Source: an uncultured Eubacteriales bacterium (GTDB taxonomy: Bacteria; Bacillota; Clostridia; Christensenellales; Aristaeellaceae). Taken from it: 64,000 bases of DNA. Positions 42,893-55,035 of this stretch are shown here, one piece after another (position 1 is the first letter of the stretch; every line of letters starts with the position of its first letter). The stretch covers positions 62,001 through 126,000 of the forward strand of contig CADBCY010000008.1 of assembly GCA_902793325.1 (NCBI GenBank). Reading direction: 5' to 3'. A model generated the notes under the pieces. It was not told the DNA's origin. It worked only from the letters and a program-made list of their open reading frames with translations, and did no database searches. Made by a program: the position numbers and the translations under genes.

Positions 42893-43148
42893 GCAGGAAT
42901 ACATCCGCGATGACGAGGAGCGCCCATGATGGCGCGGCGCACAGCGAGCCGGAGCACGGTGCGAGTCCGGCGGCCGCCGTCCTGGGGAATCACCTCCGAG
43001 CCGCGGGTCGAGGGCGGGGCATCGCCCCTGCCGCCAGGCCCGCCGGGCGCGCCCGATACAGCGCAGGCAAGCGGACGCGCGGAGGCGCGTCAATTTGGGT
43101 GGTACCGCGAACGACTTCGTCCCAAGGTGGATGAGGCCGATTTTTATT
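42893..43148 (+). promoter_or_regulatory. T-box leader, isoleucine specific
   Basis: Untranslated RNA that senses uncharged tRNA-Ile. The conserved T-box sequence GGTGGTACCGCG is at 43098-43109 and pairs with the tRNA acceptor end. Upstream, a long GC-rich stem I contains GGGGAATCACC; ATC (42989-42991), in the position expected after a purine stretch, is the probable Ile specifier codon. A T-rich segment (GATTTTTATTT) follows before the ileS ribosome site. The open frame through this region belongs to the RNA, not to the protein. Confidence 0.9.
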
Positions 43149-43162
43149 TGGAGGGAACGCGA

Positions 43163-46100
43163 ATGATCGAGAAGGTATCCACGGCCCTGGACTTCCTGAC
43201 GCGCGAGAAGGAAGTCATCAAGTTCTGGAACGAGAACCATATCTTCGAAAAGTCCATCGAGCAGCGGGAGGGGAACGAGGTGTTCACCTTCTTCGACGGC
43301 CCGCCCACGGCCAACGGCAAGCCGCACATCGGCCACATCGAGACCCGCGCCATCAAGGATCTCATCCCCCGCTACCAGACCATGAAGGGCAAGAAGGTGC
43401 TGCGCAAGGCGGGCTGGGATACCCACGGCCTGCCCGTGGAGCTGGAGGTCGAGAAGCAGCTCGGCCTGGACGGCAAGGAGCAGATCGAGCAGTACGGCAT
43501 CGAGCCCTTCATCAAGGAGTGCAAGAAGTCCGTCTGGAAGTACAAGGGCGAGTGGGAGAAGATGTCCGAGCGCGTCGGCTACTGGGCCGACATGGAAAAC
43601 CCCTACATCACCTATGACGACAACTACATCGAGTCCGTGTGGTGGAGCCTGAAGCAGATCGCCGACATGGGCCTGCTGTACAAGGGCCACAAGGTGGTGC
43701 CCTACTGCCCGCGCTGCGGCACCGCGCTGTCCAGCCACGAGGTCTCCCAGGGCTACAAGGAGGTCAAGGAGCGCTCCGCCGTGGTGCGCTTCAAGGTCGT
43801 CGGCGAGGACAACACCTACATCTACGCCTGGACCACCACCCCCTGGACGCTGCCCAGCAACGTGGCGCTGTGCGTGAACCCGGACGAGACGTACGCCCGG
43901 TTCGACTACGACGGCCGCACCGTCATCATGGCCGACCCGCTGATCGCCAAGGTGCTGGGCGAGGACGCCGTGGTGGAGAACAAGACCACCTTCCCCGGCC
44001 GCGAGCTGGTGGGCCTGCGCTACGAGCCGCTGTTCGACTTCCAGCGCGAGGCCATCAAGGGCGTGGAGAACGAGGAGAACGCCTGGACGGTGGTGGCCGA
44101 CGGCTACGTCACCATGACCGACGGCACCGGCGTGGTGCACCAGGCGCCCGCCTTCGGCGAGGACGACGCCCGCGTGGGCCGCGAGAACCACATCCCCTTC
44201 CTGCAGATGGTGAACACCCGCGGCGAGATGACCGAGGGCACCCACTGGCCCGGCGTGTTCGTGAAGAAGGCCGACCCGATGATCCTGGAGGAGCTGGAAA
44301 GGGAAGGCAAGCTGGTCTCCGCGCCGTACTTCACCCACGACTACCCGTTCTGCTGGCGCTGCGACACCCCGCTGATCTACTACGCCCGCAGCACCTGGTT
44401 CATCCGCATGACCGAGGTCCGCGACCAGCTGGTGGCCAACAACAACACCGTGAACTGGTACCCGGACAACATCCGCGAGGGCCGCTTCGGCAACTTCCTG
44501 GAGAACGTCATCGACTGGGGCCTGTCCCGCGAGCGCTACTGGGGCACGCCGCTGCCGGTGTGGGTGTGCGCGGACTGCGGCAGGATCCACGTGATCGGCT
44601 CCCGCGCGGAGCTTCGGGAGATGGGCCGGGACGTGCCGGCGGACATCGAGCTGCACCGCCCCTACATCGACGCCGTGACGCTGACCTGCCCGGCCTGCGG
44701 CGGCGCCATGAAGCGCACCCCGGAGGTCATCGACTGCTGGTACGATTCCGGCTCCATGCCCTTCGCCCAGTGGCACTATCCCTTTGAGAACAGGGAGGTC
44801 TTCGAGGAGAACTTCCCCGCGAACTTCATCTCCGAGGCCATCGACCAGACCCGCGGCTGGTTCTACACGCTCATGGCCATCTCCACGCTCATCTTCCACC
44901 GCGCGCCTTACGAGAACGTGGTGGTGATGGGCCACGTGCAGGACAAGGACGGCCGCAAGATGTCCAAGCACCTCGGCAACGTCGTCGATCCCTGGGACGT
45001 GTTGAATCGCCAGGGCGCCGACGCCGTGCGCTGGTACTTCTACGCCACCAGCGCGCCGTGGCTGCCCACCCGCTTCAGCCACGAGCTGGTCAGCGAGATG
45101 CAGTCGAAGTTCATGGGCACGCTGTGGAACACCTACGCCTTCTTCTGCATGTACGCCGCCATCGACGGCTACGACCCGGCCGAACACGCCGCCGACCCGA
45201 AGGATCTCACCCTGATGGACCGCTGGGCCCTCTCGAAGCTCAACAGCCTGGTGAAGTTCGTGGACGAGGGCATGGCCGAGTACAGGATCTTCGAAACCGC
45301 CCGCGCCATCCAGGGCTTCGTGGACGAGCTGTCCAACTGGTACGTGCGCCTGTCCAAGTCGCGCTTCTGGGGCAAGGACTGGACCGGCGACAAGCGCGCC
45401 GCCTATCACACGCTGTACACCGTGCTGGTGACGCTGTGCAAGGTCGCCGCGCCGTACATCCCCTTCATGACCGAGAGCATGTACCGCAACCTGGTGGCCG
45501 GCGTCGTCGAGGGCGCGCCGGAGTCCGTGCACCTGTGCGATTTCCCCGTCGCCGACGAGGCGCAGATCGACCGCGCGCTCGAGGCGGAGATGGACGAGGT
45601 CGCCCAGGCCGTGCAGCTGGGCCGCGCCGCCCGCAGCGCCGCCAACATCAAGGTGCGCCAGGCGCTGGGCACGCTGTACGTGAAGGGCGCCGCGCTGGGC
45701 GAGGAGTACGCCGCGCTGATCCGCGACGAGCTGAACGTGGAGGAGATCCGGTTCGTGGACGACGCCCGCGCCTTCACCACCTACCAGATCAAGCCCCAGC
45801 TGCGCACCCTGGGCCGGCGGTACGGCAAGCTGGTGCCCGCCATCGGCGAGTACCTGAAGGCCGTGGACGGCAGCGCCTTCGTGGACGCGCTGAACCGCGA
45901 CGGCGCCGTGCGGTTCGAAATCGACGGCAATCCCGTGGAGCTGTCGGCGGACGACTGCCTGATCGAGCCCGCCCAGAAGCCGGGCTTCATGGCTCAGACC
46001 GAGGGCGACATGACCGTGGTCATCGACACCAACCTGACCCCGGCGCTGATCGAGAAGGGCTTCGTGCGCGAGGTCATCTCCAAGCTGCAGACCATGCGCA

Positions 46101-46309
46101 AGGAGGCGGGCTTCGACGTGGTGGACCGCATCAGCGTCACCTACAGCGCTTCCGAGGCGCTGGCCCCGGTGATCGAGCGCAACGCGGAGACCATCATGTC
46201 CGCCGTGCTCGCCACCGCGCTGACCGCCGGCCCCGCGCCGGAGGGCGCCTACGCCAAGGACTGGAAGATCAACGGCGAGGCCGCCAGCCTGAGCGTGAAG
46301 CAGAACTGA
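43163..46309 (+). CDS. ileS: Isoleucyl-tRNA synthetase (eukaryote-like, type 2)
   Basis: Charges tRNA-Ile, with an editing domain. The 1048-residue protein has the HIGH motif at residues 55-58 in GKPHIGHIETRAIKDL, the CP1 editing domain (about 190-400, with TTPWTLPSNVALCV), KMSKH near 600 (DGRKMSKHLGN) and a long C-terminal region without an obvious C-terminal zinc finger. Length and HIGH context match the type 2 IleS clade, which is usually insensitive to mupirocin, rather than the shorter type 1. GGAGGG lies before the ATG. Controlled by the T-box. Confidence 0.97.
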   Translation: MIEKVSTALDFLTREKEVIKFWNENHIFEKSIEQREGNEVFTFFDGPPTANGKPHIGHIETRAIKDLIPRYQTMKGKKVLRKAGWDTHGLPVELEVEKQLGLDGKEQIEQYGIEPFIKECKKSVWKYKGEWEKMSERVGYWADMENPYITYDDNYIESVWWSLKQIADMGLLYKGHKVVPYCPRCGTALSSHEVSQGYKEVKERSAVVRFKVVGEDNTYIYAWTTTPWTLPSNVALCVNPDETYARFDYDGRTVIMADPLIAKVLGEDAVVENKTTFPGRELVGLRYEPLFDFQREAIKGVENEENAWTVVADGYVTMTDGTGVVHQAPAFGEDDARVGRENHIPFLQMVNTRGEMTEGTHWPGVFVKKADPMILEELEREGKLVSAPYFTHDYPFCWRCDTPLIYYARSTWFIRMTEVRDQLVANNNTVNWYPDNIREGRFGNFLENVIDWGLSRERYWGTPLPVWVCADCGRIHVIGSRAELREMGRDVPADIELHRPYIDAVTLTCPACGGAMKRTPEVIDCWYDSGSMPFAQWHYPFENREVFEENFPANFISEAIDQTRGWFYTLMAISTLIFHRAPYENVVVMGHVQDKDGRKMSKHLGNVVDPWDVLNRQGADAVRWYFYATSAPWLPTRFSHELVSEMQSKFMGTLWNTYAFFCMYAAIDGYDPAEHAADPKDLTLMDRWALSKLNSLVKFVDEGMAEYRIFETARAIQGFVDELSNWYVRLSKSRFWGKDWTGDKRAAYHTLYTVLVTLCKVAAPYIPFMTESMYRNLVAGVVEGAPESVHLCDFPVADEAQIDRALEAEMDEVAQAVQLGRAARSAANIKVRQALGTLYVKGAALGEEYAALIRDELNVEEIRFVDDARAFTTYQIKPQLRTLGRRYGKLVPAIGEYLKAVDGSAFVDALNRDGAVRFEIDGNPVELSADDCLIEPAQKPGFMAQTEGDMTVVIDTNLTPALIEKGFVREVISKLQTMRKEAGFDVVDRISVTYSASEALAPVIERNAETIMSAVLATALTAGPAPEGAYAKDWKINGEAASLSVKQN

Positions 46310-46325
46310 TTGTATCATCCGCAAC

Positions 46326-46401
46326 GCCGACAGAGGCCGCAACCGCGGAGATTCCCCCGAAAGACCGCCGACACGGAGGGGGGATCTCCGCTCGTTGCGT
46401 C
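46326..46401. repeat. Dispersed palindromic element, copy B
   Basis: About 76 bp, alignable with 11717-11789 over its full length. It pairs GCGGAGATTCCCCC (46345-46358) with GGGGGGATCTCCGC (46378-46391). Relative to copy A one T-A pair has become C-G and another T-G, so the stem is kept. It lies 16 bp after the ileS stop. Confidence 0.6.
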
Positions 46402-46458
46402 CGGCGGCGTCGCCCGGTTCCGTCCGATTTTTGCCGGAAACGTTTCCCGGAAATGTCT

Positions 46459-48037: not shown

Positions 48038-48475
48038 ATGAAGCTATCCACGCGGGGTCGCTATGGCATCCACGCCATGTACGACCTGGCGGTCAACGCC
48101 GACCGCGGGCCGCAGTCCATCAAGGCCATCGCCGAGCGGGAGGACATCCCCGAGGCGTACCTGGAGCAGCTCATCGCGGTGCTGAAAAAGCAGAAGCTGG
48201 TGAACAGCACCCGCGGCGCGCAGGGCGGCTACGCGCTGGCCCGCCGGCCCGAGGAGATCACCGTGGGCGACGTGCTGCGGGCCCTGGAGGGCGGGCTGAA
48301 CCTGGTGGAATGCCTCCAGGAGACGGAAACCTGCGGCCGCACCTGCGATTGCCCGTCCCGCATCGTGTGGATGAAGATCCAGGCGGGGCTGGACAGCATC
48401 GTGGACGGCATCACCCTGAAGGACATGGTCGAAGATCACGAGCGCATCGGCGCGGCGCCGCAGACCCCGGTCTGA
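48038..48475 (+). CDS. iscR: Rrf2 family regulator, IscR-like
   Basis: A 145-residue winged-helix regulator. MKLSTRGRYGIHAMYDLAVN is the family N-terminus, the recognition helix lies near 28-50, and a cysteine cluster, Cys92, Cys99, Cys103 and Cys105 in VECLQETETCGRTCDCPSR, could hold a [2Fe-2S] cluster, although spacing differs from E. coli IscR. The position directly before nifS implies control of cluster assembly or cysteine metabolism. ATG 48038 has GGGGAGG upstream; the frame is open further but that part covers the promoter. CymR function is an alternative. Confidence 0.88.
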   Translation: MKLSTRGRYGIHAMYDLAVNADRGPQSIKAIAEREDIPEAYLEQLIAVLKKQKLVNSTRGAQGGYALARRPEEITVGDVLRALEGGLNLVECLQETETCGRTCDCPSRIVWMKIQAGLDSIVDGITLKDMVEDHERIGAAPQTPV

Positions 48476-48504: not shown

Positions 48505-49713
48505 ATGCGAGTATACATGGACAACGGCGCCACCACCCGCGTCACCGAACCGGTGATGGAGGCCATGCAGCCCTACTTCTGCCAGGTATTCGGCAACCCC
48601 TCTTCCGTGCACGCCTACGGCCGCGAGGCCCGCAAGGCGGTAGAGGCGGCCCGCGCGCAGGTGGCGAAGGCCATCGGCGCCGACCCGCGGGAGATCTTCT
48701 TCACCGGCTGCGGCACCGAGGCCGACAACTGGGCCATCCGCGGCACGGCCTACGGCTACGCGAAGAAGGGCCGGCACATCATCACCACCAACTTCGAGCA
48801 CCACGCCGTGCTGCACACCTGCCGGCAGCTCGAAAAGGAAGGCTTCGAGGTCACCTACCTGCCCGTGGACGCGGACGGCCTGGTCAGCCCCGGGCAGCTC
48901 GAGGCGGCCATCCGCCCGGATACCACGCTGGTCACCATCATGTACGCCAACAACGAGATCGGCACCATCGAGCCCATCCCCGAGCTGGCGGCGGTGGCGA
49001 AGAAGCACGGCGTGGTGTTCCACACCGATGCGGTGCAGGCCATCGGCCACGTGAAGATCGACGTGAAGGCGCAGGACATCGACATGCTCAGCATGTCCGG
49101 CCACAAGTTCCACGCGCCCAAGGGCATCGGCGTGCTGTACAAGCGGCAGGGGCTGCACGTCCAGCAGCTGATGCAGGGCGGCGCGCAGGAGCGCAACCAG
49201 CGCCCGGGCACCGAGAACCTGGCGGGCATCGTGGGCATCGGCAAGGCCATCGAGCTGGCCACCGCCGACATCGACGCCCGCGCGGCGAAGATGCGCGCCA
49301 TCCGCGACCACATGATCGCGCGCATCCTGAAGGAGATCCCCTACGTGAAGCTGAACGGCCATCCCACGCAGCGCATGTGCGGCAACGTGAACGTGTCCTT
49401 CCAGTTCATCGAGGGCGAATCCATGCTGCTGCACCTGGACCTGAGGGGCATCGCGGCGAGCTCCGGCTCCGCCTGCACCTCCGGCTCGCTGGATCCCTCG
49501 CACGTGCTGCTGGCCATCGGCCTGCCCCACGAGATCGCGCACGGCTCCCTGCGGCTGAGCCTGTGCGAGGAGAACACGATGGAAGAGGCCGACTACGTGG
49601 TGGACAGCCTGGTGGAGATCGTGGGCATGCTGCGCGCGATGTCGCCGCTGTACGACGACTTCCTCAAGGGCGAGACGACCGCTTCCCGCTGTCCCGCCTG
49701 CCCCGCCCGCTGA
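48505..49713 (+). CDS. nifS: Cysteine desulfurase (NifS/IscS)
   Basis: Takes sulfur from cysteine for Fe-S clusters and tRNA thiolation. The 402-residue PLP enzyme has YMDNGATTRV at the start, the PLP lysine Lys201 in SMSGHKFHAPKGIG and the active-site Cys324 in SSGSACTSGSLDPSHVL, the long-loop (group I) form. GGAGG lies eight bases before the ATG. Follows iscR by 29 bp and precedes a broken iscU. The extended tail after DDFLKGE ends in a Cys-x-x-Cys (CPAC), unusual for the family. Confidence 0.97.
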   Translation: MRVYMDNGATTRVTEPVMEAMQPYFCQVFGNPSSVHAYGREARKAVEAARAQVAKAIGADPREIFFTGCGTEADNWAIRGTAYGYAKKGRHIITTNFEHHAVLHTCRQLEKEGFEVTYLPVDADGLVSPGQLEAAIRPDTTLVTIMYANNEIGTIEPIPELAAVAKKHGVVFHTDAVQAIGHVKIDVKAQDIDMLSMSGHKFHAPKGIGVLYKRQGLHVQQLMQGGAQERNQRPGTENLAGIVGIGKAIELATADIDARAAKMRAIRDHMIARILKEIPYVKLNGHPTQRMCGNVNVSFQFIEGESMLLHLDLRGIAASSGSACTSGSLDPSHVLLAIGLPHEIAHGSLRLSLCEENTMEEADYVVDSLVEIVGMLRAMSPLYDDFLKGETTASRCPACPAR

Positions 49714-49767: not shown

Positions 49768-50108
49768 ATGGATTACACCGAGCAGGTCATGGACCACTTC
49801 ATGCATCCCCGTAACATGGGCGAGATGGAAGACGCCAGCGGCGTGGGCACCGTCGGCAACGCCAAGTGCGGCGATATCATGCGCATCTACATCAAGGTGG
49901 AGAACGACGTCATCACCGACGTGAAGTTCAAGACCTTCGGCTGCGGCGCGGCCATCGCCACCTCCAGCAAGGCCCGCCGGTGAAGGTGCACTGTTCCGTG
50001 CTGGCCGAGGAGGCGCTGCACGCCGCCATCCAGGACTACCGCGAGCGCCTCGCCAAGGGCGAAAAGCCCCGCACCGAGGAGGACGACGAGGACATAAAGT
50101 ACGTCTGA
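49768..50108 (+). pseudogene. iscU: iscU/nifU-like Fe-S scaffold, frameshifted by an internal deletion
   Basis: The reading frame from 49768 (GGGAG upstream) gives MDYTEQVMDHFMHPRNMGEM and runs through AKCGD (Cys34) and FGCGAAIATSS (Cys59) exactly like NifU-type scaffolds, then reads KARR and stops at 49983. The missing C-terminal part continues in another frame from about 49971: PPVKVHCSVLAEEALHAAIQ, with the third cluster cysteine, to a stop at 50108. Normally about 29 residues (the helix ending in an LPPVK-type sequence) separate ATSS from PPVK; here only five bases remain, so roughly 80 bp is lost and the frame broken. Either a real pseudogene or a sequence error. Confidence 0.85.
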
Positions 50109-50174
50109 TCCGCCGTTTCCGAGACCGCCATCCTTCCCGCGGAGGATGGCGGTTTGACCCATGGAGGGATGCCC

Positions 50175-50552
50175 GTGACCCCGGACGAGCTGCAATTCTT
50201 CGACGGAAAGCCCGGCGCGCTGGAGCTGTACGAGCGCTTCCGGGCACGGCTGTTTGAAATCGCCCCGGACGCGGCCGTGCAGGTCCACCGCACGCAGATC
50301 ACGTTCAGGACCCGCTACGGCTTCGCGTTCGTCTCCTTTGCGCCGGTGCGCCGCGCGGCGGCGCGGGGGAAGGACTGGCTGACGGTGAGCTTCGGCCTGC
50401 CCGCCAGGGTGGAATCACCCCGCGTGGACGCCGCCGTGGAGGCCCGGCCCAACCGCTGGACGCATCACGTGCTCGTCGACGACCCCGCGCGGCTGGACGA
50501 CGCGCTGTTCGGGTGGATCGCCGAGGCCGCGGCATTTTCCCGCCGAAAGTAG
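50175..50552 (+). CDS. DUF5655 family protein
   Basis: A 125-residue soluble protein that begins VTPDELQFFDGKPGALELYE and has VQVHRTQITFRTRYGFAFVSF and WTHHVLVDDPARLDD, typical of DUF5655 proteins found alone or fused to other domains; function unknown. GTG 50175 lies six bases after GGAGGG; an ATG at 50169 is immediately after that site and a TTG at 50154 precedes it, so GTG fits best. It lies between the broken iscU and the Cys-rich gene. Confidence 0.78.
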   Translation: MTPDELQFFDGKPGALELYERFRARLFEIAPDAAVQVHRTQITFRTRYGFAFVSFAPVRRAAARGKDWLTVSFGLPARVESPRVDAAVEARPNRWTHHVLVDDPARLDDALFGWIAEAAAFSRRK

Positions 50553-50568: not shown

Positions 50569-50793
50569 ATGGAGCAGAAGACCTGCGACTACAGCTACCT
50601 GCCCTGCCAGTTCTGCGTGGGCAAGAACCATTGCAGGCAGTGCGGCGAGGACATCCGCCGCGCGCTGCTGGGCCTCTCCGGCGTGGCGGCGGTGGAGATG
50701 GACGTCCCCGCCCGCAGGCTCACCCTGACGCTGGACGGCGCGGACTTCGACGACGTGGCCGACGCCGCCGACGCCCTCGGCGTGTTCCTCTGA
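50569..50793 (+). CDS. Small Cys-rich HMA-like protein
   Basis: A 74-residue protein. Residues 1-25 have five or six cysteines (CDYSYLPCQFCVGKNHCRQC). The rest, EDIRRALLGLSGVAAVEMDV and RRLTLTLDGADFDDVADAAD, has the helix-strand-strand-helix pattern of heavy-metal-associated domains, with CRQC near the CxxC position. A metal chaperone or cluster-binding role is plausible, not shown. The ATG has AAAGGA upstream. Starts 17 bp after DUF5655. Confidence 0.65.
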   Translation: MEQKTCDYSYLPCQFCVGKNHCRQCGEDIRRALLGLSGVAAVEMDVPARRLTLTLDGADFDDVADAADALGVFL

Positions 50794-50848: not shown

Positions 50849-52633
50849 ATGATTCACGGCAACCTGACCGGCATACGCGAGAGCGTATTGAACGAGCTGG
50901 AGAAGCTCTACGACGCGGAGTTCGAGCGGGACGTGTTCCTGCCCGACCGGCTGCTGAACCTGCTGGTGCGCTACACGGAGCAACTGAACCGCGAGCTGCT
51001 GGTGTACCTGGGGCGGGACGGCACGGTGCTGGAGATCGCCGTGGGCTCCATCGGCAGCATCGCCCTGCCGGAGCTGCACCTCAGGCGCAACCTGGACCGG
51101 CTGTCCGGCTTCCGCTGCATCCACACCCATCCCGGCGGGGGCGCGCGGCTGTCCGACGTGGATCTGCAGGCCCTGCGGCTGCTGCGCTTCGACAGCATGT
51201 GCGCCGTGGGCGTGGCGGAGGGCCGCTGCACCGGCATCAGCGCCGCGTTCCTGGGCGAGGTGGAGTACGATAACCTCACCATCGTCGTCAGGGGCCCGGT
51301 GAAGCCCGGCCGCATCCCCCAGCAGCTTTGGATGAAGGAGATCGAGCTCGCGGAGGAGCGCGTGCGCAGGGCCATCGAGAAGGGCGGCCTCGTGGAGGAG
51401 GCGGAGAAGGCCATGCTCATCTCCACCGACAGCGAGGAGAGCCTGGACGAACTGGCCAGCCTGGCGGAGACCGCCGGCGCCATGGTCATCACCCGCGTGC
51501 TGCAGAGCCGCCAGCGGCCCGACCCCGCCACCTTCATCGGCAGCGGCAAGGCCGAGGAGCTGGCGCTCGTCTGCCAGGCGATGGAGATCGACCTCGCGAT
51601 TCTGGACGACGAGCTCACCGGCGCGCAGCAGCGCAACCTGGAGAACGCGCTGGGGGTGCGGGTGATCGACCGCACGGCGCTGATCCTGGACATCTTCGCC
51701 CAGCGCGCCCAGTCCGCCGAGGGCAAGCTGCAGGTGGAGCTGGCGCAGATGAAGTACCGCCTGCCCAGGCTCGCGGGCATGGGCGCGGCGCTGTCCCGCC
51801 TGGGCGGCGGCATCGGCACCCGCGGCCCCGGCGAAACGCAGCTGGAGGTGGATCGCCGCCGCGTGCGCCGCCGCATCGACGACCTCGAGGCGCAACTGAA
51901 GGAGCTGAAGAAGCAGCGCGACCTGCGCCGCGCGCGCCGGGAGAAGACCGGCCAGACTACCGTGGCGTTGGTGGGCTATACCAACGCCGGCAAGTCCACG
52001 CTGCTGAACGCGCTGTCGGGCTCGGACGTGCTGGTGGAGGACAAGCTGTTCGCCACGCTGGACCCCGTCATGCGCCAGGTGGAGCTGCCGGAGAACCGCA
52101 GTTGCCTGGTGGTGGACACGGTGGGCTTCATCCGAAAGCTCCCCCACCCGCTGGTGCAGGCGTTCCGCTCCACGCTGGAGGAGGCGCTGTACGCGGATCT
52201 GCTGGTGATCGTGTCCGACCTCTCCAGTCCCCACTACGCCCAGCAGCGTGCCACGGTGTACGACGTGCTGAACGAGCTGGGCGCCGCGGACAAGCCGATC
52301 CTGGAGGCGCTGAACAAGGCTGACCGGGCGAAGCTTCCGGACATCATCGAGCCCGCCGACGCCATCCTCATCTCCGCCAGGGAGGGCGAGGGCCTCGACC
52401 GGCTCCGGCTGGCGATCTCCCGCCGCATCGCGACCCTGCGGCACAGGACGGAGCTGGTGATCCCCTACGACAAGGGGAACGTGCTCTCCCTGCTCCACGA
52501 CAAGGGGCAGGTGCTGGAGGAGGAATACCTCGCCGAGGGCACGAGAGTGAGCTGTATGCTGGACGCGGCGCTGTACCGGCGGGTGCTGGGGATGCTGGGC
52601 ATCCGGCCCGCGCGGGACGAGGACGGAGAATAG
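50849..52633 (+). CDS. hflX: GTPase HflX with N-terminal JAMM-like extension
   Basis: Ribosome-binding GTPase that rescues stalled or heat-damaged ribosomes. The 594-residue protein has an additional N-terminal region (1-about 165) with HTHPGGGARLSDVD (92-105), an exact HxHP-x6-SxxD JAMM metalloprotease motif, then the HflX nucleotide-binding region (about 185-355), a coiled linker (RRIDDLEAQLKELKKQRDL) and the G domain with GYTNAGKST (G1) and DTVGFIRKLP. It ends with a C-terminal domain. Typical bacterial HflX without the extension is about 430 residues. The start ATG has GGAGG upstream. The C_GCAxxG_C_C gene follows. Confidence 0.92.
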   Translation: MIHGNLTGIRESVLNELEKLYDAEFERDVFLPDRLLNLLVRYTEQLNRELLVYLGRDGTVLEIAVGSIGSIALPELHLRRNLDRLSGFRCIHTHPGGGARLSDVDLQALRLLRFDSMCAVGVAEGRCTGISAAFLGEVEYDNLTIVVRGPVKPGRIPQQLWMKEIELAEERVRRAIEKGGLVEEAEKAMLISTDSEESLDELASLAETAGAMVITRVLQSRQRPDPATFIGSGKAEELALVCQAMEIDLAILDDELTGAQQRNLENALGVRVIDRTALILDIFAQRAQSAEGKLQVELAQMKYRLPRLAGMGAALSRLGGGIGTRGPGETQLEVDRRRVRRRIDDLEAQLKELKKQRDLRRARREKTGQTTVALVGYTNAGKSTLLNALSGSDVLVEDKLFATLDPVMRQVELPENRSCLVVDTVGFIRKLPHPLVQAFRSTLEEALYADLLVIVSDLSSPHYAQQRATVYDVLNELGAADKPILEALNKADRAKLPDIIEPADAILISAREGEGLDRLRLAISRRIATLRHRTELVIPYDKGNVLSLLHDKGQVLEEEYLAEGTRVSCMLDAALYRRVLGMLGIRPARDEDGE

Positions 52634-53418: not shown

Positions 53419-55035
53419 ATGCAGCATCCCGAATTAAAGGCCGAGGTGGCGCGCAGGCGCACCTTCGCCATCATTTCCCACCCCGACGCCGGCAAGACCA
53501 CGCTCACCGAAAAGCTGCTGCTCTACGGCGGCGCCATCCGCCAGGCGGGCAGCGTCAAGGCCCGAAAGGCCGCCCGGCACGCCACCTCCGACTGGATGGA
53601 GATCGAGAAGCAGCGCGGCATCTCGGTCACGTCGTCGGCCATGCAGTTCGACTATAACGGCTTTCGTATCAACATCCTCGACACCCCCGGCCACCAGGAC
53701 TTCTCCGAGGATACCTACCGCACCCTCGTGGCGGCGGACAGCGCCGTGATGCTCATTGACAACGCCAAGGGCGTGGAGGAGCAGACCGTGAAGCTGTTCA
53801 AGGTGTGCCGCCTGCGCTCCATCCCCATCTTCACGTTCATCAACAAGATGGACCGCACCGGCCGGGACCCCTTCGAGCTGATGGAGGACATCGAATCGGT
53901 GTTGGGCATCCGCTCCTGCCCGGTGAACTGGCCCATCGGCATCCACGGCGACTTCAAGGGCCTGTACCACCGCGACACCCGGTTCATCGAGCTGTATTCC
54001 GGCGGCGATCACGGCCAGGACCAGGTCAACGTGGAGACGGTGTCCATCGACGACCCCGCCTGCCCGGAGCGGATCGGCCGCACCTACTACGACAAGCTGA
54101 TCGAGGACATCGAGCTGCTGGACGTGGCGGGCGACGAGTTCGACATGGACAAGATTCTCGCCGGCCAGCTGACCCCCATGTTCTTCGGCTCCGCCACCAA
54201 CAACTTCGGCGTGGAGCCCTTCCTGAACCGGTTCCTGAGCTACACCAAGTCTCCCACGCCCCGCGTCGCGGAGGAGGTGGGGCCCATCGACCCCGCGGAC
54301 GAGAAGTTCACCGGCTTCATCTTCAAGATCCAGGCCAACATGAACCCGGCCCACCGGGACCGGCTGGCCTTCATGCGCGTGTGCTCCGGCGTGTTCGAGA
54401 AGGGCATGACCGTGTGGCATTCCTCCAGCAATTCGAGGATCAAGCTGGCCCAGCCCCAGACCTTCATGGCCCAGGAGCACGAGAGCGTGGAGACCGCCTA
54501 CCCCGGCGACATCATCGGCCTGTTCGACCCCGGCATCTTCCGCCTGGGCGACACCATCTGCACCGGCAATCCCGTGCGCTACTCGGGCATCCCGCTGTTC
54601 GCGCCGGAGTTCTTCTGCCGCGTCAGCCCCGAGGACTCCATGAAGCGCAAGCAGTTCTTGAAGGGCGTCAACCAGCTCTCGCAGGAGGGCGCGATCCAGA
54701 CCTTCAAGCGGCCCAACATCGGCCGGGAAGAGATGATCGCCGGCGTGGTCGGCGTATTGCAGATGGACGTGCTGGAGTACCGCCTGAAGAGCGAGTACGG
54801 CGTCAGCATCCTCCGCGAAAACCTGCCCTTCCGCTTCGTGCGCTGGGTGGTGGAGACGCCGAAGCCGCTGGAAAAGCTGCGGCTGACCAGCACCACCGCC
54901 ATCGCCGAGGACCGCGTCGGGCGCCCGGTGCTGATGTTTGAAAACGAGTGGTCGATCCGCCTGGCCGGCGAGAACAACGAGGGCCTCGTCCTCGCCGAGA
55001 CCGCCGACCGCATGAACGCGGACGACATGGAATAA
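53419..55035 (+). CDS. prfC: Peptide chain release factor 3
   Basis: GTPase that removes RF1/RF2 from ribosomes after peptide release. The 538-residue protein has the G domain with SHPDAGKTTLTEKLLLYGGAI, LDTPGHQDFSEDTYRTL and the NKMD motif, followed by domains II and III with family-typical EVVGVLQ-like AGVVGVLQMDVL. Length and the QRGISVTSSAMQFDY switch region match RF3, not EF-G. AGGAGG lies seven bases before the ATG. typA follows 49 bp later. Confidence 0.97.
   Translation: MQHPELKAEVARRRTFAIISHPDAGKTTLTEKLLLYGGAIRQAGSVKARKAARHATSDWMEIEKQRGISVTSSAMQFDYNGFRINILDTPGHQDFSEDTYRTLVAADSAVMLIDNAKGVEEQTVKLFKVCRLRSIPIFTFINKMDRTGRDPFELMEDIESVLGIRSCPVNWPIGIHGDFKGLYHRDTRFIELYSGGDHGQDQVNVETVSIDDPACPERIGRTYYDKLIEDIELLDVAGDEFDMDKILAGQLTPMFFGSATNNFGVEPFLNRFLSYTKSPTPRVAEEVGPIDPADEKFTGFIFKIQANMNPAHRDRLAFMRVCSGVFEKGMTVWHSSSNSRIKLAQPQTFMAQEHESVETAYPGDIIGLFDPGIFRLGDTICTGNPVRYSGIPLFAPEFFCRVSPEDSMKRKQFLKGVNQLSQEGAIQTFKRPNIGREEMIAGVVGVLQMDVLEYRLKSEYGVSILRENLPFRFVRWVVETPKPLEKLRLTSTTAIAEDRVGRPVLMFENEWSIRLAGENNEGLVLAETADRMNADDME

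Follow-up and report, generated by a model that had tools for sequence, protein, structure and literature searches.

The Fe-S scaffold gene (iscU/nifU) of this uncultured bacterium is broken in its assembly by a gap of 82 bases, and we consider the gap probably an error in the assembled sequence, introduced during assembly or by a chimeric read. Short non-triplet lesions in related assemblies break other genes as well, the essential ileS among them, which makes an assembly error the likelier origin. The living organism would then carry an intact scaffold gene, the gap having come from a faulty join or from a chimeric read that persisted in a thin consensus, and NifU/IscU would build the cluster with sulfur received from NifS, with nothing unusual required. 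Such sulfur transfer from NifS to NifU/IscU, with the cluster built on the scaffold, is established for the family. As a biological feature, the iscU lesion is probably of no importance. The window analyzed here is the whole stretch of 64,000 nucleotides (C8:62001-126000) from genome G000, a 3.23-Mb assembly of 67 contigs that is 95% complete.

The locus is an ordinary clostridial operon of an Rrf2 regulator, NifS and NifU/IscU, all encoded on the forward strand like the neighbouring genes described below. The gene of the iscR-like Rrf2-family regulator (48038..48475) is intact, matching the Pfam Rrf2 profile with 140.8 bits and TIGR00738 above its cut-off, and it reached 120.2 bits against the IscR model TIGR02010, short of the cut-off of 207.55. 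The cysteine desulfurase gene nifS (48505..49713) is intact as well, with 582 bits for TIGR03402 (FeS_nifS, cut-off 530.75) and 79-88% identity to its counterparts in those congener loci that were compared. The initial annotation, which placed intact iscR and nifS genes beside the lesion, was thus right on the integrity of both genes, and its regulator is better named Rrf2, given the score under the IscR cut-off. Downstream of the scaffold gene follow profile matches to a DUF5655 protein (50154..50552) and a small heavy-metal-associated (HMA) domain protein (50569..50793), then the GTPase gene hflX (50849..52633; TIGR03156, 459.6 bits, cut-off 216.75) and the release factor 3 gene prfC (53419..55035; TIGR00503, 686.6 bits, cut-off 466.95), both intact in the window. 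The isoleucyl-tRNA synthetase gene ileS, also intact, occupies the stop-to-stop frame 42914..46306 (TIGR00392, 961.1 bits, cut-off 621.4). A dispersed repeat, about 84 bases long, has one copy at positions 46325-46408 and recurs in at least 30 further places of G000 at 75-90% identity and in none of six relatives among the matches listed; it may be a mobile or REP-like element specific to the species.

The scaffold gene itself (49768-50108) is split, with its first 68-69 residues and its final 44 in different frames. The 5' piece (49768..49983; 71 codons and a stop, with homology to about 49973) matches positions 2-70 of NifU_N (PF01592), carries the first two cluster cysteines (C34 and C59) and shows 89-98% DNA identity to 24 congeners. 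The 3' piece (49974..50108) covers NifU_N positions 92-124 in another frame and carries the third cluster cysteine, and all of its 44 residues recur unchanged in congener G018. The conserved cysteines of the scaffold are the cluster ligands, and in the window they do not come together within one protein. Over the full length of TIGR03419, the clostridial NifU model, the pieces score 119.7 and 33.5 bits against a cut-off of 187.9, and the intact scaffold gene of G021 exceeds this cut-off with 202.8 bits, while it does not reach the separate cut-off of the IscU model. The name iscU given initially therefore stands as to the conserved scaffold family, and not as to the IscU model itself. As expected of a TIGR03419 scaffold, a NifS-type cysteine desulfurase is encoded in the same operon (48505-49713). 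In this assembly the window's scaffold gene encodes no complete protein, and the out-of-frame break described in the initial annotation was confirmed.

The best-fitting loss is exactly 82 bases, or 27 and one third codons, against each of the congener copies tested (23/23), a set that excludes two genomes from outside the genus and G004, where the gene runs into a contig end. The loss is not a multiple of three, as had been claimed, and the measured length replaces the earlier figure of about 29 residues. At the junction (49973..49974) the two sides abut; one base is shared in 21 of the 23 comparisons and none in the other two. The 5' side reads ATSSKA as in the congeners, the homology covering AAG and most of the following codon, so there is no filler between the two sides; the five bases that had been placed between the homology of the first frame and the second thus disappear. 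With the gene calls of 19 other genomes as queries, the break was located at the same junction, which is far from chance. One shared base at most is too little for the collapse of a repeat of k-mer length, so an error would need a read chimera or a gap-closing step, which counts against this reading. Secondary structure was rejected as the cause of the gap: a 160-nt stretch of the G021 gene folds better than its shuffles (z -2.69), and the junction, inspected by eye, does not lie at the base of a stem. Programmed recoding, in which a -1 shift ahead of the stop at 49981-49983 would fuse the frames into a shortened scaffold, has next to no probability. Such a shift would bring the second frame into register, but about 27 conserved codons would still be absent from the fold, no slippery heptamer was seen at the junction by eye, and the arrangement is absent from all 24 congeners in which iscU was matched.

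The full gene is widespread in sister genomes, where the initial annotation had suggested looking for it. Across the genus set of 28 genomes, the window's own included, with full length meaning the whole 140-residue query, iscU is uninterrupted over its full length in 22 of the 27 congeners. In the remaining congeners, the gene is cut by a contig end (G004), has lost 26 bases that remove the variable tail only (G009), or gave no match (G001, G012 and G026). Relatives serve here as a proxy for the parental sequence, a weakness in the case for an assembly error. In the nifS tree G000 groups weakly (85/77) with G003 and G005, and the hflX tree leaves its position unresolved, so there is no close parental sequence for G000.

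The median pN/pS of the two window pieces is 0.098, within the range of the per-relative medians of 22 intact relatives (0.055-0.163), and relaxed selection on the pieces was accordingly rejected. Codons private to the window number three in the 5' piece, one of which changes the residue, and none in the 3' core. Judged from these substitutions, both pieces still resemble a functional gene and appear to evolve as an intact one does. The unchanged pN/pS and the few private codons indicate that the lesion is either very young or absent from the organism. The conserved ends had initially been taken to mean a recent lesion; the functional look of the pieces holds, and recency becomes one of these two readings.

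Lesions of this kind are not confined to the window. The first lesion survey covered the gene calls of the window and of the isc neighbourhoods of 20 relatives (18 from the genus and two from the family), and an indel was counted when at least three other genomes supported the uninterrupted reading. In this survey 199 gene copies were intact and three indels broke the reading frame, namely the 82-base loss in the window's iscU, a 26-base gain in prfC of G002, which is a tandem duplication, and a 100-base loss in hflX of G004. Two stops were also recorded, one in iscU of G009, which results from its 26-base loss, and one in nifS of G019, where a lysine codon has become TAG. With 15 stretches added, the wider survey gave eight lesions against 309 copies with a single-frame match covering at least 80%, a count that was made at identity thresholds slightly looser than in the first survey and may include some copies bearing one of the stops. 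Dropped from it were an ileS indel row of G002, whose support consisted of two broken copies only, and 10 stop positions backed by just two genomes. The three new lesions all lie in ileS (a 17-base loss in G001, a 31-base loss in G026 and a TAG in G003). The six deletion junctions that were read by eye share 0 or 1 base. The window's gene calls, ileS included, are intact in 28 of 29 comparisons in the wider survey; its assembly is thus not demonstrably poor in general, and this otherwise clean window counts against an assembly error.

The gene ileS, which is essential to the cell, was used as a control. A whole-genome search with the window's ileS in 12 genomes of the genus, G000 included, found one close copy per genome (12/12) and no second ileS in any of them; the other matches are 25-34% identical and are present also where ileS is intact, except for a 42-residue match within G001's own ileS locus. 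Six genomes carry an uninterrupted close copy (G000, G002, G005, G013, G018 and G019), and in two more (G009 and G012) a contig end cuts it. It is broken by indels in three, with losses of 17 bases in G001 (L262), 31 in G026 (L265) and 16 in G004 (L279), and by a nonsense codon (TAG) in one, G003 (L263). TAG marks in the ileS of G001 and G009 were dropped, as they lie near the query start, ahead of the likely start of the gene. Since the gene is essential and has no second copy, breaks in it are very unlikely in living cells. Like the iscU lesion, each of the three ileS deletions is short and out of frame, and no repeat marks its junction. Hence, the same kind of lesion occurs in an unlosable gene of comparable assemblies (4/12 copies, the stop included), and scattered short non-triplet breaks across related drafts cannot all be biology. 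We infer that the window's gap arose like the ileS lesions and the other lesions of the sister assemblies. An assembly error, which the initial annotation had offered as the alternative, is now favoured in view of these lesions. More broadly, single-gene losses inferred from draft genomes need an unlosable control gene. A broken ileS is also a useful mark of assembly quality.

Searches of the G000 assembly for other Fe-S scaffolds gave 0 matches to the SUFBD core (PF01458, SufB/SmsB type; control 14/14) and 0 matches to the NifU C-terminal domain (PF01106; control 5/14). For IscU/SufU (PF01592) the matches were the two pieces and a partial one on contig C23, with no further full-length protein. 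These absences come from a 95%-complete assembly of which about 5% may be missing, and they support an error in the assembled sequence. The initial annotation had expected SufU/SufB elsewhere to take over and had proposed to look for suf genes in the genome, an expectation that these searches do not bear out. A backup scaffold may sit in the unassembled part of G000, a possibility raised by G003 and G005, the two genomes weakly grouped with G000 in the nifS tree, both of which have SUFBD.

Such a backup is central to a rather unlikely alternative, namely a real deletion of very recent date, present in the sampled strain or the bulk of its population, by which iscU would be a fresh pseudogene and its load would be carried by another system (an SMS pair in the unassembled 5%) or by nothing yet. 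It takes the sequence as given and fits the unchanged pN/pS, which is expected if the deletion is recent. A SUFBD match is present in 23 of the 27 congeners, and in G018, the only congener examined in this respect, a 311-aa SUFBD protein adjoins a SufC-like ATPase as an SMS-like pair, although the protein scores under the SmsB, SufB and SufD cut-offs. Furthermore, G001 has SUFBD, no iscU match and hflX in a different neighbourhood, so a genome with SMS may be able to do without iscU. Deletion of iscSU2 was tolerated in Methanosarcina acetivorans, a species with three iscSU and two sufCB clusters according to part of that report (PMC7585200). Against a recent deletion stand the SUFBD protein not found in the G000 assembly, the short non-triplet lesions in the essential ileS of related assemblies and a junction without a repeat for slippage.

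In G001, the upstream neighbours of hflX (G001:C40, L230) are quite different, with no iscRSU alongside, which possibly reflects true loss or relocation of the isc operon. Comparison of four SMS loci revealed a common neighbourhood in one pair only (G002 and G018). The empty-site test for SMS was abandoned, as one shared-neighbourhood pair among four loci leaves gap and loss indistinguishable. The patchy occurrence of the SMS-like pair (L105 492-2163; L186-L189) and its differing neighbourhoods hint at mobility. Of the 59 relatives searched, 58 carry SUFBD and/or a NifU_N match that is not of the C23 kind; the sole exception, G026, lacks SUFBD and any NifU_N match starting in the first 13 profile positions, and its own ileS is broken. 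Mutual replacement of IscU and SUFBD over the 59 relatives was not significant as an association (Fisher p = 0.25, from presence lists compiled manually) and is of descriptive use only. Among the full-length copies counted, that of G042 contains an internal TAG.

The partial match on C23 belongs to a NifU-like protein of 233 aa, followed directly downstream by GGGtGRT (PF14057, 296.6 bits), which the contig end cuts (L003 1333-2579). Its residues 57-113 match NifU_N at profile positions 39-95 (about 39-96), scoring 21.5 bits where the cut-off is 22; the genome search gave 22 bits. We regard it as very unlikely that the loss is real and tolerated because this protein, with GGGtGRT, acts as the remaining scaffold. 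The match, the GGGtGRT gene next to it and similar weak NifU_N matches in 44 of the 59 relatives (counted manually, the GGGtGRT neighbour being known for C23 only) are in its favour. However, only the middle of the profile is matched, ending ahead of the third-cysteine region; the scaffold role is putative, and such proteins are present with or without iscU and do not track its loss. It is extremely unlikely that the lesion is real and fixed and that G000, lacking both IscU/SufU and SufB/SmsB, makes its clusters by an unrecognised route, for example with the NifU-like protein and GGGtGRT. Were the lesion real, these two would be all that is left, and the absence of any recognised Fe-S scaffold from a bacterium would suggest an assembly route not yet known. 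On contig C14 (L077 1498-4011), another NifS-like desulfurase, with 46% identity to that of the window, lies near a 386-aa ATPase-like frame; at a guess, this region may belong to a defence or DNA-modification island.

Literature searches found no paper on iscU loss in this bacterial group, which is no proof of absence. Compared with known systems, the window's gene is like the clostridial NifU/IscU scaffold (TIGR03419; PF01592) in that both pieces match and all three conserved cysteines are present in the DNA, and unlike it in that the stretch from the second to the third cysteine is 82 bases short. The minimal ISC system (MIS), described in the accessible part of its report as a cysteine desulfurase and a scaffold with no carrier (PMC12192291), resembles the window's operon in pairing a desulfurase with an IscU-type scaffold, whereas here the scaffold is broken and an Rrf2 regulator is linked. 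The minimal SUF system SMS (SmsC-SmsB) has a likeness in congener G018, where a SufC-like ATPase and the 311-aa SUFBD protein stand together; it differs in that the G018 protein falls below the SmsB, SufB and SufD cut-offs and that no such pair was found in G000. Finally, the accessible part of a survey by Cooley and Wright (2024, PMC11017572) attributes many bacterial pseudogenes to assembly errors, and the lesions described here are like those assembly-made pseudogenes, breaking the frame of conserved genes and being probably absent from the organism.
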